Assembly: GCF_009902005.1 (NCBI RefSeq) | Contig: NZ_WUTT01000001.1 | Coordinates: forward strand, 286,762-350,761 | DNA length: 64,000 nucleotides | Reading direction: 5' to 3' | Source of the DNA: Halomonas alimentaria | GTDB lineage: Bacteria; Pseudomonadota; Gammaproteobacteria; Pseudomonadales; Halomonadaceae | Part shown: positions 53,447 through 60,727 of the stretch, piece after piece | Layout of the letters: each line of letters begins with the position of its first letter | Position numbering within the stretch: position 1 is the stretch's first letter | Notes under the pieces: model-generated | Seen by the model: the letters and a program-made list of their open reading frames with translations, nothing else | Databases searched by the model: none | Told to the model about the DNA's origin: nothing | Position numbers and translations under genes: made by a program

Positions 53447-53922
53447 CGCAGTGTCGCTGCGTCGGCATGAGCGGCCTCCAGGTCGGCCAGCCGCCGGCCA
53501 TCCGGCAGCCGCATCCGCGGCTCCACCGCCAGCAGCGGCACCAGCACAAAGGCGCGCCGGGCCATCTCCGGGTGCGGCACCGTCAGGCGCGGCAGGCAGA
53601 GGGTGCTGTCATCGAACAGTAGCAGATCCAGGTCGAGGGTGCGGGGCCCCCAGCGGCGGCTGCGGATCCGGCGGTGGCGCTGCTCCAGGGCTTGCAGCTG
53701 GTCGAGCAATGCCAGCGGCGAGAGACGGGTCTCCACGCAGGCTACGGCATTGATGAAGTCGGGCTGATCCTGGGGACCGACGGGGCGACTGGCATACAGC
53801 TTTGATGCGGCGATGCGACGCGTCAGGGGCAACCGGTCGAGTGCCTCGAGGGCCCGGGCGACCTGCGCCTCGGGATCCTCGAGGTTGCTGCCCAGGCCGA
53901 TCCAGGCGCGCTGCATGCTCAT
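53416..53922 (-). CDS. folK: 2-amino-4-hydroxy-6-hydroxymethyldihydropteridine pyrophosphokinase
   Basis: Transfers pyrophosphate from ATP to the pterin substrate, one step before FolP. The 168-residue protein opens AWIGLGSNLEDP and has RRWGPRTLDLDLLLFDD and VPHPEMARRAFVLVPL, the family signature. Its start overlaps the pcnB stop by 4 bases (ATGA). Confidence 0.97.
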   Translation of the reverse strand: MSMQRAWIGLGSNLEDPEAQVARALEALDRLPLTRRIAASKLYASRPVGPQDQPDFINAVACVETRLSPLALLDQLQALEQRHRRIRSRRWGPRTLDLDLLLFDDSTLCLPRLTVPHPEMARRAFVLVPLLAVEPRMRLPDGRRLADLEAAHADAATLRVLPSGFNGR

Positions 53923-55328
53923 GCCTCGGGGCTACCACCATCGTTATCGCGGCGTGGCTTGCGCCGGCGGCGGCGCTTCTTGCGGCCGGGTTTGCCGCTA
54001 CCGGCGGGGTTGGCGCCGGCCTTGTCGAGCAGGCGGGCCTGCTCGTGTTCATCAGCTTTCTGGAAGGCGGTCCACCAGTCGCCGAGGCCGGGCTGGAGTT
54101 CGCCGGCCGCCTCGCGCAGCAGCAACAGGTCATAGGCGGCGCGGAAACGCGGGTGCTCCCGGGTTTGGAATACCCGGCGACCGCGGCGCAGCGGCAGGCG
54201 TTGCTGGAGGTCCCAGATGTCGCGCATGGGCAGGCTGAAACGCTTGGGGATCGACACGTGCTGGAGCTGGCGCGAGACCACCTGCTGGGAGGCGGCCTGC
54301 AGCGCCGGGATCGGCGGCAGGCCCCTGGCCTCCTGTTCGGCCTGACGCTGCACCACCGGCCCCCACAGCATGGCCGCAAACAGGAAGGCGGGGGTCACCG
54401 GACGCTCCTCGAGGATGCGTCGATCGGTGCTGGCCAGGGCCTCCTCGACCAGGCGCTCGGCCCAGGGCAGCTCATCCATGGCCTCGGCGGCCTCGGGGAA
54501 GAGCATCTCGAACAGGCCGTAGTGTCGCAGCAGTCGGAACGTCTCGACGCCGTGACCGGCCATGAACAGCTTGAGCACCTCGTCGAACAGACGCGCCGGG
54601 GGGATCTGCAGCATCAGGGGGGCGAGCTCGCGGATCGGCGCCTCGCTGTCTGGGGCCAACTGGAAGTCGAGCTTGGCTGCAAAGCGCACAGCACGCAGCA
54701 TGCGCACCGGGTCCTCGCGATAGCGGGTCGCCGGGTCGCCGATCAGCCGCAGGGTGCGCGCCTCGATGTCGCGAACGCCGTTGGCGAAGTCGTGGATCGA
54801 GAAGTCGGCGATGCTGTAATAGAGGGCGTTGATGGTGAAGTCGCGGCGCAGGGCATCTTCCTGGATGTTGCCCCAGACGTTGTCGCGCAGCAGCAGGCCG
54901 TCGTCGGACTGCTGGGCGATATGGTCGGCGTGGTCGTCGCCGGGCTTGCCGCGGAAGGTGGTGACCTCGATCACCTCGCGGCCAAAGCGCACGTGGACGA
55001 TGCGAAAGCGGCGACCGATGATCCGCGAATTGCGGAACAGCCCCTTGACCTCCTCCGGCGTCGCGTCGGTGGCGACATCGAAGTCCTTGGGCATGCGTCC
55101 CAGCAGGGAGTCGCGGATGCAGCCGCCGACCAGATAGGCCTCGAAGCCGGCGTTATGCAGCCGATAGAGGACCTTGAGGGCGGCATCGCTGAAGTGCTGG
55201 CGCGATACCGGGTGCTCCTCGCGGGGAATGACGCGCACCTCGGGCACGCCGGCGGCGGCCTCGGTACCGAACAGCGACTTCAGGCTCTCGCCGGGGCTCT
55301 GCAGAAAACGGGTAAATCCTTTGAACAT
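53919..55328 (-). CDS. pcnB: Poly(A) polymerase I
   Basis: Adds 3' poly(A) tails that promote RNA decay. The 469-residue protein has the nucleotidyltransferase signature YLVGGCIRDSLLGRMPKDFD (about residues 75-95), the RNA-binding middle domain and a strongly basic C-terminal tail (RKKRRRRRKPRR). I chose the ATG at 55328 (MFKGFTRFLQ) from family alignment. No good ribosome site precedes it, and the frame stays open a further 65 codons into the crcZ region, so the true start is uncertain. In Pseudomonas, pcnB also follows crcZ. Confidence 0.93.
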   Translation of the reverse strand: MFKGFTRFLQSPGESLKSLFGTEAAAGVPEVRVIPREEHPVSRQHFSDAALKVLYRLHNAGFEAYLVGGCIRDSLLGRMPKDFDVATDATPEEVKGLFRNSRIIGRRFRIVHVRFGREVIEVTTFRGKPGDDHADHIAQQSDDGLLLRDNVWGNIQEDALRRDFTINALYYSIADFSIHDFANGVRDIEARTLRLIGDPATRYREDPVRMLRAVRFAAKLDFQLAPDSEAPIRELAPLMLQIPPARLFDEVLKLFMAGHGVETFRLLRHYGLFEMLFPEAAEAMDELPWAERLVEEALASTDRRILEERPVTPAFLFAAMLWGPVVQRQAEQEARGLPPIPALQAASQQVVSRQLQHVSIPKRFSLPMRDIWDLQQRLPLRRGRRVFQTREHPRFRAAYDLLLLREAAGELQPGLGDWWTAFQKADEHEQARLLDKAGANPAGSGKPGRKKRRRRRKPRRDNDGGSPEA

Positions 55329-55444: not shown

Positions 55445-55471
55445 AGAAGGGGGAGGCCGATGGCCTCCCCC
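55445..55471 (-). terminator. Terminator of the CrcZ-like RNA
   Basis: On the minus strand GGGGGAGGCC-ATC-GGCCTCCCCC forms a perfect 10-bp stem, followed by TTCT. Confidence 0.75.
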
Positions 55472-55936
55472 TCAAGCAACGGTGCAGCATCCCTGCTGCT
55501 GGTTCTTCTTCGTGATGGCACATCGCCTTGAATACGCACCACAGTCACCAAGGAGTACAGGCAAGCAGTGTTGTTATCCTTGTTGGCGCTCCCGGGGGTA
55601 ACCGCCTCGTATTCAAAACAATAATCCAACCACGACGGCAGAAAATCTGCCTTCCCCCGGCGTCTTGGTATTGTTCCCGGGGGTGCGCCTCGCTTGCCCA
55701 TTGTTCTTGTTGTGGGCGTGGCTGGCGCGTCGCGTCCTGAGTCTTCCGGTGCCTCGGGTTGCTGTTGTTGTTGGGGCCGAGGGGCCGGGCACGTCATTCA
55801 GTTGTTCTTGTTGGTCTCGTGCCTGTAGCGGCACTCGCCCACGCTGTTGGCATTGTTGTGGTGGGCGTCTGTCATCCGGGCTGCACTGTTGTTGTTGTGG
55901 CGGGCAGCGGATGACGCCGGAACTTGTTTTTCTTGC
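55445..55936 (-). ncRNA. crcZ: CrcZ-like small RNA (Hfq/Crc decoy), predicted
   Basis: Predicted to sequester Hfq/Crc and relieve carbon catabolite repression. The minus strand carries about seven A-rich AAC/AAG repeats at 55887-55899, 55846-55860, 55799-55814, 55758-55775, 55699-55716, 55667-55675 and 55568-55587. Several sit in hairpin loops: GGCGTCATCCG..CCGGATGAC, CCTCGG..CCGAGG, GCCC..GGGC and CCCCCGG..CCGGGGG. A sigma-54 promoter ends 12 bases upstream and a hairpin terminator closes it. In Pseudomonas, crcZ lies between cbrB and pcnB behind a CbrB-dependent sigma-54 promoter; the same layout is seen here. At about 490 nucleotides it is somewhat longer than the roughly 400 of P. aeruginosa CrcZ. 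Reading frames across it look non-coding. Confidence 0.82.
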
Positions 55937-55947
55937 CCTGTTATATA

Positions 55948-55962
55948 GCAGGCGGCATGCCA
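55948..55962 (-). promoter_or_regulatory. Sigma-54 promoter of the CrcZ-like RNA
   Basis: On the minus strand TGGCATGCCGCCTGC fits TGGCAC-N5-TTGC with the invariant GG and GC exactly 10 bases apart. Transcription would start near 55936. CbrB, a sigma-54 activator, is encoded immediately upstream. An A+T-rich tract at 55968-55990 could hold a bend or IHF site. Confidence 0.8.
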
Positions 55963-55991: not shown

Positions 55992-56087
55992 GTTACTGGT
56001 GTCGATGAAAAGGGCGTCGTCGGATGCGGGCGTGAGTGTTACCCGGATGGCACCGTGTTGGGGCCCTGTCTGTGTGGGACGGTAACA
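55992..56087 (-). promoter_or_regulatory. Candidate CbrB upstream activating region
   Basis: GTTAC (55992-55996), TGTTAC (56037-56042) and GTAACA (56082-56087) are spaced about 45 bases apart, 40 to 140 bases upstream of the sigma-54 promoter. From memory, P. putida CbrB recognises TGTTAC-N14-GTAACA. The half-sites match but the spacing does not, so binding is tentative. Confidence 0.4.
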
Positions 56088-56236
56088 AATGGTGCGTGGC
56101 TGGCCCGGAAGCTGCCCCCGGGCGTCGACAGGAGGCGAGGAGAGAGCTCTTGCACCTTGGTCGAAGGTGCCTCGCTTCGAGCACGCCCTGGCCGGGCGAA
56201 GGGTGGTCGCGGCCTGGTCAGCAGGGGGGGCAGGAA

Positions 56237-57627
<1,391 letters not shown>

Positions 57628-57631
<4 letters not shown>

Positions 57632-60561
57632 CGGGGTGTTTCACCCTCCTTCTGGTGGCGCGGCAGCCACAGGCTGATGCGGGTGCCGCGCTCGCGTCCC
57701 GGTGGTGGAGATTCGACCTCCAGGTTGCCGTGGTGCTCGGCGACGATGCTGTAGACCAGCGGCAGGCCGAGGCCGGTGCCTTCGCCAGGGGGCTTGGTGG
57801 TGGTGAAGGGCTCGAAGAGGTGGTCGCGCACGCTGGGGTCGATACCTGCCCCCTCGTCGGTGACGCTGATCCTCAGCCCCGCGCCCTCCGGGACCGCCTC
57901 GATGGTCACGCCATCCCCCGGCTCGCTGGCATCGCGGGCGTTGCCCAGCAGATTGACCATCACCTGGAGCAGGCGCTGGGCGTCGCCCTCGACCCGCTCC
58001 GCCGCCGGGCAACGGTTGTCGAAGCGCACATCCTCCCTCGAGCGGGCGAGATGGATCAAGTGGATGGCCTCGTCGACCACCTTGGCGATGCCAACCGGGG
58101 CGAGTTCGCGGCCGGCCAGGTGACGCCCGCCATGGGCGAAGCCCACCAGCGAGGAGACGATGCGCGAGACGCGGTCGGTGAGCTGCTGGATCTGCTCGGT
58201 GGTCTCCAGCACCTCGGGGTCATCGGTCTCGTAGCGCAGGTTCTGGGCCAGCGAGGAGATGCCGGTGATGGGGTTGCCGATCTCGTGGGCGACCCCGGCG
58301 GCCAGCTGGCCGATGGAGGCCAGGCGGGCGGCGTGGACCAGCTCGTCTTCCAGCCACTTCATCTCGCTGTGGTCCTCGACCAGGATCACCATGCCGCCGG
58401 GCTCGTTGTCGCTGCCCTCCAGGGCGGCCTTGTGCAGGCTCAGGTAGCGTGTGGTGCCGTCCAGGCTGACAGGCTGCTTGTAGAGGTGGCTGCCGGGCTC
58501 CGCGATGATGCGTCCCAGCAGTTCGCCCCAGGGGGCAGGCAGGCTCTCGCGCCGTGCGCCGACCACACCGCCGCCCTCGATGCCCGAGAGCCGGGCCAGG
58601 GCATCGTTCCACATCAGCAGCTCACCATCCTCGCCGAAGGCGCACAGCCCCACCGGTAGCCGGGTCAGGGTGCGGCGGTGGTAGCGGCGCAGGCCGTCGA
58701 GCTCCCGGGCGAGACCGGTGAGCCGCGAGCGGTAGGCTTCCAGGCGGCTCTCCACGAAGTGGATGTCCTCGGTGGCGCCGGGACCATCCTGGCGGTAGGG
58801 CAGGTAGCGGTCGACGATGTCCTGGGCCACCGAGGGACCCATCAGCCCCGAGAGGTTGGCCTGCAGGCGGTCGCGCAGCCGGCGCAGTGCATAGGGGCGG
58901 CCGTCCAGTGGTGACAGGCCCAGGTCATCCAGGGCGCGATCCACCTCGCGGGCCGCCACCGACTCGCCCAGGGCGCGTGCCAGGTACGACTTGAACTCCT
59001 CGCCGTTGGCGGCCTCCAGCGGCAGCCGCTTGGGGCGGATCACTGCGTCCACCGAGCAGGCCTCGGCGGCGGCGCGCTCCCCCTCGGAGGTCGGGGTGGC
59101 CAGGGAGACCACGATGAACACCAGGGCGTTGCTCGCCAGCGAGACCAGAGTCACCGCATACCAGGCGGGCTCGCCGGCCAGCGCCTCGAGTCCCGGAGGA
59201 ATGATCACCAGGGCGGGCAGTCCGGTCAGCAGCGGCAGCCACAGCCCGGCGAGCCACACCAGGATGCCGCTGGCCAGCCCGGCCAGCATGCCCCGCCGGT
59301 TGGCGCCCGGCCAGTAGAGCAGGGCCAGCAGGCCGGGCAGGCACTGCGCCATGCCCACGAAGGCGGCAAGCCCCAGGCTGGTCAGGTCGTGGTGCACGCC
59401 GACGATGCGATAGAACAGCCAGCCACCGAGCACCACGGCGGCGACCAGGCCGCGGCGCAGCCAGCGCAACCAGCGGTAGAGGTCGTGGTGGGCCTCGGGA
59501 GGGTGCGCCACCAGGAAGACATGGTTGACCAGCATGCCCGACAGCGCCAGGGCGATCAGCAGCGTGGTAGCACTGGTGGCGGCCAGGCCGGCGAGGAAGG
59601 CCAGGGCCTGGAGTGCCACCGACTCGGAGAGGCCGAACGCCAGATAGGCGGTACCCAGGGGACCATCGGCGCCCAGCCGCTGGCCCGCCCACAGGATCAG
59701 CGGCACCGGCAGCGCCATCAGCAGCAGGAACAGCGGCAGTGCCCAACTGGCCTGCAGCAGGGTGTGGCGCGAGCGGGTCTCGGTGAACACCAGGTGGAAG
59801 ATGTGCGGCATCAACAGGCCGGCGAAGAACAGCAGCAGCAGCGAGCGCCAGTGCGCCGGGTCGGTCTGGACCACGCTGGCCTGGAAGGCCTGGCCAGGAC
59901 CCTCGAGCCACGCCTGGACGTCGGCGGGACCCTCGAACACGGCGAACAGCGCGAAGGCACCCAGGCCCAGCATGGCGGAAAGCTTGATCAGCGAGGAGAG
60001 TGCCATCACCGCCAGCAGGCTGTCGTGCTGGCCGTCGATGCGCCGTCGACCCACGAAGGTCATGTCGAACAGCGCCAGCAGCACGCAGAAGACCAGCGCC
60101 AGCGTTGCCGGCGAGGCCGCGCCGGTCATCAGGTAGATGGCGTTGCCCATGGTCTGCACCTGCAGCGCCAGCAGCGGCAGTACCGCCAGCAGGCTGACCA
60201 GGGTGATCAGGGTGCCGACCCAGCGCGAGCGATAACGGAAGGCGAAGAGGTCGGCCAGCGAGGCCAGCTGATGGGTGCGTACCATGCGCTGGATCGGCAC
60301 CAGCAGCACCGGTGCCAGCAGGAAGGCGCCGGCCACCCCCAGGTAGTAGGTCAGGTAGCCGTAGCCGGAGGTGGCGGCCAGCTCCAGGCTGCCATAGATC
60401 GCCCAGGCGCTGGCGTAGACTCCCAGCGCCAGGGCGTAGACCAGCGGGTGGCGGGTGATGCGCGTGGGGATCCAGCCGCGATCCACGGCCAGGGCGCAGA
60501 GCCACAGCAGCAGCAGGAAGCCGGCCCCCACGCCGAGCATGGTCGCCAGGCTAGCGTTCAT
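57628..60561 (-). CDS. cbrA: Sensor histidine kinase CbrA with SLC5-type transporter domain
   Basis: Membrane sensor of the CbrAB system; in Pseudomonas the transporter domain takes up histidine. The 977-residue protein has about 13 membrane segments of the sodium/solute symporter type (to about residue 500). A linker and PAS domain (about 620-730) and a kinase core with the H box [11 protein letters not shown] (His759) and GTGLGLPLV follow. I chose the ATG at 60561 because AGAGGA lies 6 bases upstream; a TTG seven codons earlier is weaker. It overlaps the cbrX stop region. Confidence 0.95.
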
Positions 60562-60727
60562 CGAGCTTCCTCTTCTGCTCAAGCCACACGGTCAGGGCGA
60601 TCAGCACGCCCCAGATGACGAAGGGACGGTACCAGGCGACGCCGGGAGTGGCCCAGCCGCTCATGATCAGTGGCGAGAGCAGGTAGCCACCGAGCACCAG
60701 GAACAGCATCAGCCGATAGACGTACAT
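60551..60727 (-). CDS. cbrX: Small membrane protein upstream of cbrA (CbrX-like)
   Basis: 58-residue protein opening MYVYRLMLFLVLGGYLLSPL, with a second hydrophobic stretch near residues 36-48 and a charged tail ending EQKRKLDER. It has two probable membrane helices. The ribosome site GGAGG is 4 bases before the ATG. Its stop lies inside the start of cbrA (11-base overlap), which indicates translational coupling. Pseudomonas has a similar small gene, named cbrX, just before cbrA; the symbol rests on position and type. Confidence 0.8.
   Translation of the reverse strand: MYVYRLMLFLVLGGYLLSPLIMSGWATPGVAWYRPFVIWGVLIALTVWLEQKRKLDER

Follow-up and report, generated by a model that had tools for sequence, protein, structure and literature searches.

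In Pseudomonas, the RNA CrcZ (RF01675) occupies the slot between cbrB and pcnB, with a -24/-12 promoter and a GTTAC/GTAAC pair upstream, and it carries A-rich stretches; in all of these features the locus described here is alike. RsmY/RsmZ and CsrB/CsrC, the decoys of RsmA/CsrA, show their motif in hairpin loops, the motif of the CsrA decoys being GGA as against the A-rich one for Hfq. They also repeat a protein-binding motif which titrates a translational repressor, according to PMC4063720. The same paper describes P. aeruginosa CrcZ as an RNA of 407 nt with six A-rich stretches to which Hfq could bind with its distal face, and reports that its first 151 nt, containing three A-rich stretches, bound Hfq in gel shifts. 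For the Hfq/Crc/CrcZ mechanism of Pseudomonas we rely on excerpts of PMC4063720 and PMC6890931. The extra copies CrcY and CrcX of some Pseudomonas share the decoy principle (PMC8871633, in part), and CbrAB itself has been stated to be unique to, or exclusive of, Pseudomonadaceae (excerpts of PMC8871633 and PMC6296734). Among the matches listed from the open-access literature, no title or abstract beginning reported a CrcZ-like RNA in Halomonas, Halomonadaceae or other marine genera. CrcZ and Halomonas occur in separate contexts in the passages available from PMC9049629, and those from PMC5073097 mention cbrAB transcripts in a marine community without assigning them to Halomonas.

We analyzed a 64 kb stretch of Halomonas alimentaria DNA (called the window here, at its whole length), in which a predicted RNA is situated between cbrB and pcnB, all in one direction. 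The gene order on the minus strand is gluQ (named from its own sequence), cbrA, cbrB, a gap of 900 bases and pcnB, with the following genes around the gap.

57628..60582, minus strand: cbrA, sensor kinase, 984 aa, 49-51% identity to CbrA of Pseudomonas-like loci.
56237..57631, minus strand: cbrB, NtrC-type response regulator, 464 aa, 64-66% identity to CbrB of Pseudomonas-like loci.
53919..55328, minus strand: pcnB, poly(A) polymerase, named by an NCBIfam model.

No NCBIfam model assigns the name CbrA or CbrB to either protein, and Pfam gave no transporter domain for CbrA at E 0.001; their identity rests on near full-length likeness to Pseudomonas-like loci together with synteny. The probable start of pcnB is ATGTTCAAAGGATTTACC, rather than the far-upstream ATG given in the ORF list, and an identical start sequence is present in three relatives (L003, L029, L036). 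Within the gap, a GCACCA box, a GTTACC/GTAACA pair and a -24/-12 promoter are followed by A-rich stretches that have G+C stems and by a terminator, as listed here.

56090..56095, minus strand: GCACCA box, no known binder.
56037..56086, minus strand: upstream pair, GTTACC (56086-56081) and GTAACA (56042-56037).
55947..55962, minus strand: predicted sigma54 -24/-12 promoter, TGGCATGCCGCCTGCT.
55445..55936, minus strand: predicted CrcZ-like RNA, about 492 nt, with A-motif excess, low fold energy and conservation in relatives.
55924..55934, minus strand: A-rich stretch 1, AAGAAAAACAA, at the 5' end, mostly unpaired in the fold.
55887..55898, minus strand: A-rich stretch 2, hairpin loop in the fold.
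55845..55859, minus strand: A-rich stretch 3, hairpin loop in the fold.
55802..55812, minus strand: A-rich stretch 4, AACAAGAACAA, single-stranded in the fold.
55759..55772, minus strand: A-rich stretch 5, AACAACAACAGCAA, hairpin loop in the fold.
55701..55711, minus strand: A-rich stretch 6, AACAAGAACAA, hairpin loop in the fold.
55665..55675, minus strand: A-rich stretch 7, AACAATACCAA, hairpin loop in the fold.
55608..55622, minus strand: 5' arm of a conserved 15-bp core helix, ATTGTTTTGAATACG, near-invariant in 45 relatives.
55571..55584, minus strand: A-rich stretch 8, AACAAGGATAACAA, in the core domain, partly paired in the fold.
55522..55536, minus strand: 3' arm of the core helix, CGTATTCAAGGCGAT, near-invariant in 45 relatives.
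55445..55471, minus strand: terminator hairpin with a short T-tail.

On the minus strand of 55445-55940 we found 13 copies of AACAA, with one on the opposite strand, as compared to a mean of 1.34 and a maximum of 6 in 1000 dinucleotide shuffles; similarly, AANAANAA occurs 9 times (shuffles mean 0.25, maximum 4). When the 64 kb were scanned on both strands, the top eight 500-base segments for AACAA all overlapped the RNA region. The predicted fold has an energy of -204 kcal/mol (z = -6.97), and none of 100 shuffles was equally low. The sequence-only reading had reported about seven A-rich motifs here, at least four of them in hairpin loops. Their excess over the shuffles is real, while the count comes to eight stretches by eye and seven blocks with a stricter pattern; stretches 2, 3, 5, 6 and 7, i.e. 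five of the eight, form hairpin loops in the predicted fold, in agreement with that reading. Its placement of the RNA in the cbrB-pcnB slot, with a -24/-12 promoter at one end and a hairpin terminator at the other, was likewise borne out, although the hairpin at 55471-55445 is missing from the output of an automated terminator scan. The +1 of the RNA is predicted near 55936. A covariance model of the core, which had the window sequence among its inputs, matches 55636-55445 at 189 bits. A further element within the RNA, AGGACGCGACG (about 55735-55725 of the window, minus strand), recurs in several Halomonadaceae RNAs, e.g. L003, L029 and L048, and is absent from those of L038 and L043.

The promoter TGGCATGCCGCCTGCT is the sole exact match to TGGCAYG-N5-TGCW within the 64 kb. 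With one mismatch permitted, 5 matches were obtained against 6.7 expected, i.e. no more than by chance, so the -24/-12 site alone is weak evidence and its weight comes from conservation: a GG-N10-GC site and a GTTAC/GTAAC pair are both present in 45/45 cbrB-bearing family loci, as judged by sequence only. We infer from this co-occurrence and from the analogy with Pseudomonas, there being no footprint, that the pair is the putative CbrB site. The GCACCA box was found between -150 and -125 in 30/45 cbrB-bearing and 15/15 cbrB-less loci. A palindrome, GACNATNGTC, for which no binder is known, lies near -200 upstream of the promoter (e.g. in L005 and L233) in 23/45 cbrB-bearing and 11/15 cbrB-less loci, and occurs about 0 times in shuffles.

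We drew 61 genomes of the family and called CbrB at E at most 1e-120, which placed it in 46 of them. In 45 of these 46, cbrB is followed by pcnB across a gap with 9-20 AACAA; the exception, G024 (L041), has no adjacent pcnB or RNA and was excluded from the sets of 45. Upstream of pcnB, 60/61 family genomes have an A-rich RNA preceded by a -24/-12 promoter, and a model of the core (R1) detects it in 58/61. The RNAs of the 45 relatives have a uniform layout, with a length of 462-554 nt and 7-9 A-blocks each. Their 15-bp core helix has standard pairs in 45/45 at 14 of the 15 positions and in 43/45 at the remaining one; since its letters scarcely vary, the core demonstrates conservation and not covariation. 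On the other hand, the stem of the terminator has changes on both sides among the 45 relatives. In minimum-energy folds, their A-blocks (n=369) are 91% unpaired as against 34% for the remaining sequence, and hairpin loops hold 238 of the 369. Among the 324 A-blocks whose flanks were long enough, 170 are bracketed by a stem of 5 bp or more, as compared to a mean of 54 and a maximum of 73 when flanks were swapped between species (20 permutations), which indicates that the A-block stems co-vary. In G024 (L041, L250), both cbrA and cbrB are present and pcnB is located away from cbrB; no A-rich RNA was detected next to either cbrB or pcnB, nor with the model, which is the reverse of the cbrAB-less case described below. 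In G057 (L051, whose genus label is common to L048-L050), a CbrB-like gene was matched over its first 381 residues only, and the genome yielded no CbrA orthologue, so that an orphan CbrB is possible.

Similar results were obtained when named species, one genome per species, were scanned with a 22-base pattern of the core (at least 120 stretches). Among the matches listed, the pattern had one match in each of 80 stretches, two of which are the contig ends of one MAG. The matches listed span Halomonas, Vreelandella, Litchfieldella, Onishia, Salinicola, Chromohalobacter, Kushneria and Cobetia, along with Modicisalibacter, Halovibrio, Billgrantia, Marinospirillum and Oceanospirillum, and they include MAGs, one of them labelled Pseudomonadaceae. 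These stretches overlap partly with the 61-genome sample, some species being the same. Unlike the Pseudomonas with CrcY and CrcX, the own genome gave one match of the core model. Weak matches in G005 (26.8 bits) and G028 (23.5 bits) were considered as extra copies and rejected, as the stretches read contain no AACAA or AANAANAA and resemble coding regions with terminators at the end; a third weak match was obtained in G046 (21.1 bits).

Furthermore, the protein partners of such an RNA are encoded in the same genome. Among its five Exo_endo_phos genes one encodes Crc and adjoins pyrE and the RNase PH gene (neighbours judged by eye); its top match among solved structures is 4jg3 (E 2.9e-75), a catabolite repression control protein, which we take to be the Crc chain of P. 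aeruginosa. Crc is encoded in 61/61 of the Halomonadaceae genomes drawn. The single Hfq gene of the own genome (L052) encodes F at position 25, a distal-face residue that is Y in E. coli and P. aeruginosa PAO1; the change is conservative, yet it affects a position on which the binding of A-rich RNA by the distal face depends. A search of the own genome for the target motif AAYAANAAYAA gave 9 matches against 9 in the control, two of them inside the RNA and none of the remaining seven at a clear translation start, and a 14-base CA-motif pattern gave one match. With the motif at control level and no matches at start sites, no target regulon is demonstrated in the own genome.

We consider it highly probable that the window RNA is a CrcZ-like decoy of Hfq/Crc, a reading with which its locus, promoter type, upstream pair and A-rich loops agree, as does a genome that encodes both Crc and Hfq. 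Its anatomy and conservation were observed directly, and so were the loss of the upstream pair together with cbrB and the genes for Crc and Hfq. That it is transcribed, that CbrB binds upstream of it and that it binds and titrates Hfq/Crc is inferred from the analogy to Pseudomonas; for Halomonadaceae neither RNA nor binding data were found. By that analogy, CbrA would activate CbrB when the preferred carbon source is exhausted, and CbrB would bind the GTTACC/GTAACA pair and open the sigma54 promoter. The RNA would then display about eight A-rich stretches of the A-R-N type, mostly in loops, to which Hfq, together with Crc, may bind through its distal face. Catabolic mRNAs would thereby lose Hfq/Crc from their A-rich translation starts, and catabolite repression would end. 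If true, RNA-titrated Hfq/Crc repression would be an old circuit for carbon control within the order, of relevance to halophiles used for bioplastic production.

CbrB is missing from 15 of the 61 family genomes, and 13 of these 15 carry the RNA at the cut-off of the core model, with neither cbrA nor cbrB within roughly 10 kb around it. The best CbrA-like match genome-wide has 29-34% identity in all 15, like the paralogues in cbrA-bearing genomes. The other two, G017 and G018 (L248 and L249), have an A-rich stretch and a -24/-12 site upstream of pcnB, and the core was not found there by the model or by eye. The next gene upstream is gluQ in 14/15 of the cbrB-less loci, L248 having no gluQ within the stretch examined. 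The GG-N10-GC promoter is kept in 15/15, whereas the GTTAC...GTAAC pair is present in 0/15, as against 45/45 cbrB-bearing loci; lone copies of GTTACC or GTAAC persist near L236, L239, L240 and L247. The same association was noticed among the 80 named stretches listed. All 65 with cbrB have the pair, and five have gluQ directly upstream with no cbrB and no pair (Salinicola salarius L103, Kushneria sinocarnis L118, Salinicola corii L132, a Halomonas MAG L151 and Salinicola avicenniae L155); the upstream part of the remaining 10 was too short to decide. In a tree of PcnB, which lacks L041 and L072 (no PcnB), the cbrB-less genomes form two groups, needing two label changes, but a single origin was recovered in 12% of bootstrap trees and hence is not ruled out.

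Since cbrAB and the pair are gone while the sigma54 promoter and the GCACCA box are kept, we infer that another sigma54 activator works at the RNA promoter in these lineages. It is thus conceivable, although we would put the chance at a little under even, that the decoy RNA has outlasted its known activator, that at least one lineage of the Halomonadaceae, or perhaps two (including Salinicola and Kushneria species), has been rewired to another sigma54 activator, with NtrC as a candidate, and that the relief of carbon repression there may answer to nitrogen or another signal. NtrC was above the cut-off in 18/18 genomes tested and is present in all 15 cbrB-less ones. When sites were scored with a full-site consensus (threshold at least 10 of 14), NtrC-like sites were found in 14/15 cbrB-less loci as against 17% of shuffles, but also in 25/45 cbrB-bearing loci as against 12% of shuffles, and the positions of the best sites differ between loci. 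NtrC as the replacement remains a candidate only, for which the predicted sites are weak evidence. The cbrAB-less lineages offer a natural experiment that may show which components of the switch can be lost and which activator steps in. In L246 a short tandem repeat of GGTTAACCTGATATT type was observed between the RNA terminator and pcnB.

That the RNA also stays upstream of pcnB in loci without cbrAB may be expected if it were a long 5' leader of pcnB (or else a 3' tail of cbrB), with A-rich stretches and hairpins that affect the gene of the poly(A) polymerase in cis, the more so as pcnB runs in the same direction and starts within about 120 bases after the RNA. However, a terminator whose stem has changed on both sides stands between the RNA and pcnB, and a locus of another family (L069) has the promoter and A-blocks with no pcnB match in the DNA examined, and we regard the cis-acting leader as improbable. 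Somewhat less probable still is that the RNA binds Hfq but acts mainly as a base-pairing sRNA through its conserved core, the A-rich loops merely loading Hfq. Conservation among the RNAs of the 45 relatives is indeed highest in the 15-bp core helix and its flanks; yet L248 and L249 keep the A-rich stretches and the -24/-12 site with no core found, and the number of A-blocks is nearly constant at 7-9 per RNA.

We give hardly any credence to a chance low-complexity A-rich sequence or a missed protein-coding region. Although the ORF list includes ORFs across the RNA region, the longest closed ATG ORF within the RNA is merely 25 aa in the window (median 43 aa and maximum 125 in the relatives, n=45), and a chance origin is contradicted by the shuffle controls and by conservation.

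The arrangement that we read as a CrcZ-like decoy is not confined to the family. CbrB orthologues (E at most 1e-130) were present in 290/390 genomes drawn from the order. We took 40 cbrB loci of 23 other families from the best matches listed, so that the sample is biased to close relatives; a cbrA match was found in 40/40, pcnB in 34/40 and the GTTAC/GTAAC pair in 34/40. A -24/-12 site followed by at least 3 A-blocks within 500 bases, our definition of the layout, was met in 33/40 loci and 20/23 families. It was not met in L056 and L078 (f8), L057 (f9), L065 (f29), L066 (f30), L091 (f7) and L092; L057 and L066 have the promoter, the pair and two A-blocks, and L092, interrupted by a contig end, was still scored as a miss. 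The presence of CbrB in 290/390 genomes and of the layout in 33/40 sampled loci makes the restriction of CbrAB to Pseudomonadaceae too narrow.

Rfam RF01675 (gathering score 95 bits) gave no match in the window, none at the locus up to E = 10 and none in the whole genome, and the window RNA is not a member of the Rfam CrcZ family as modelled. It further differs from CrcZ in being longer (492 vs 407 nt), in having eight A-rich stretches by eye vs six and in the GCACCA box upstream. The Rfam model was above its cut-off in 6/20 of the other-family loci searched, five of f21 and one of f2, and it misses 11 of the 17 among these 20 that have the layout. Family f21, judged to be Pseudomonas-like by this match, has six loci with the same layout, and the five searched score 309-361 bits. 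The arms of a long-range helix, ATT[G/C]TTTTG[A/G]A and T[T/C]CAA[G/A]GC[G/A]AT, look common to CrcZ and the Halomonadaceae RNA, the two families differing by the exchange of an A-U for a G-C pair; they are alike in Halomonadaceae and 6/6 f21 loci, the consensus having been picked by eye from these very sequences. The Halomonadaceae core model matched the f21 locus L084 at E 0.0018 only, and with those arms not paired. Beyond f21, seven loci (L053, L055, L059, L070, L072, L080 and L088) had core-helix scores exceeding those of at least 39 of 40 shuffles, and the remaining 27/40 loci did not reach this level. The match in L088 lies upstream of its own promoter and was set aside as probably due to chance.

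Thus, the window RNA very likely works like CrcZ and is best described as a divergent CrcZ-type decoy, within a CbrAB-CrcZ module spread widely in the order, which includes lineages that have lost CbrAB and kept the decoy. The decoy proposed from the sequence alone is supported by the locus, promoter, upstream pair, A-rich loops and Crc/Hfq, with transcription and Hfq binding inferred. Of the checks suggested with it, the comparison of cbrB-pcnB gaps in Halomonadaceae (A-blocks kept, flanking stems co-varying) and the search for crc elsewhere in the genome turned out in its favour, while the Rfam search did not. The idea that an RNA in Halomonas would extend the CrcZ family holds as far as its presence in 60/61 family genomes is concerned and fails on the Rfam match, and the RNA cannot be seen as an isolated Halomonas case with the same arrangement in 20 of 23 other families sampled.

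Two or more units of promoter and A-rich stretch in a row were observed between cbrB and pcnB in L071, L075, L088 and L090 (by script) and in L072 (by eye), and these are possible tandem duplications of the RNA gene. Matches to the Rfam P36 RNA were noticed 90-100 bases upstream of CrcZ in L060, L061, L081, L082 and L084; as the matched stretch has, by eye, an inverted repeat with a T-tail and GTAAC sites, it may belong to the cbrB terminator and crcZ control region and not be a separate RNA.
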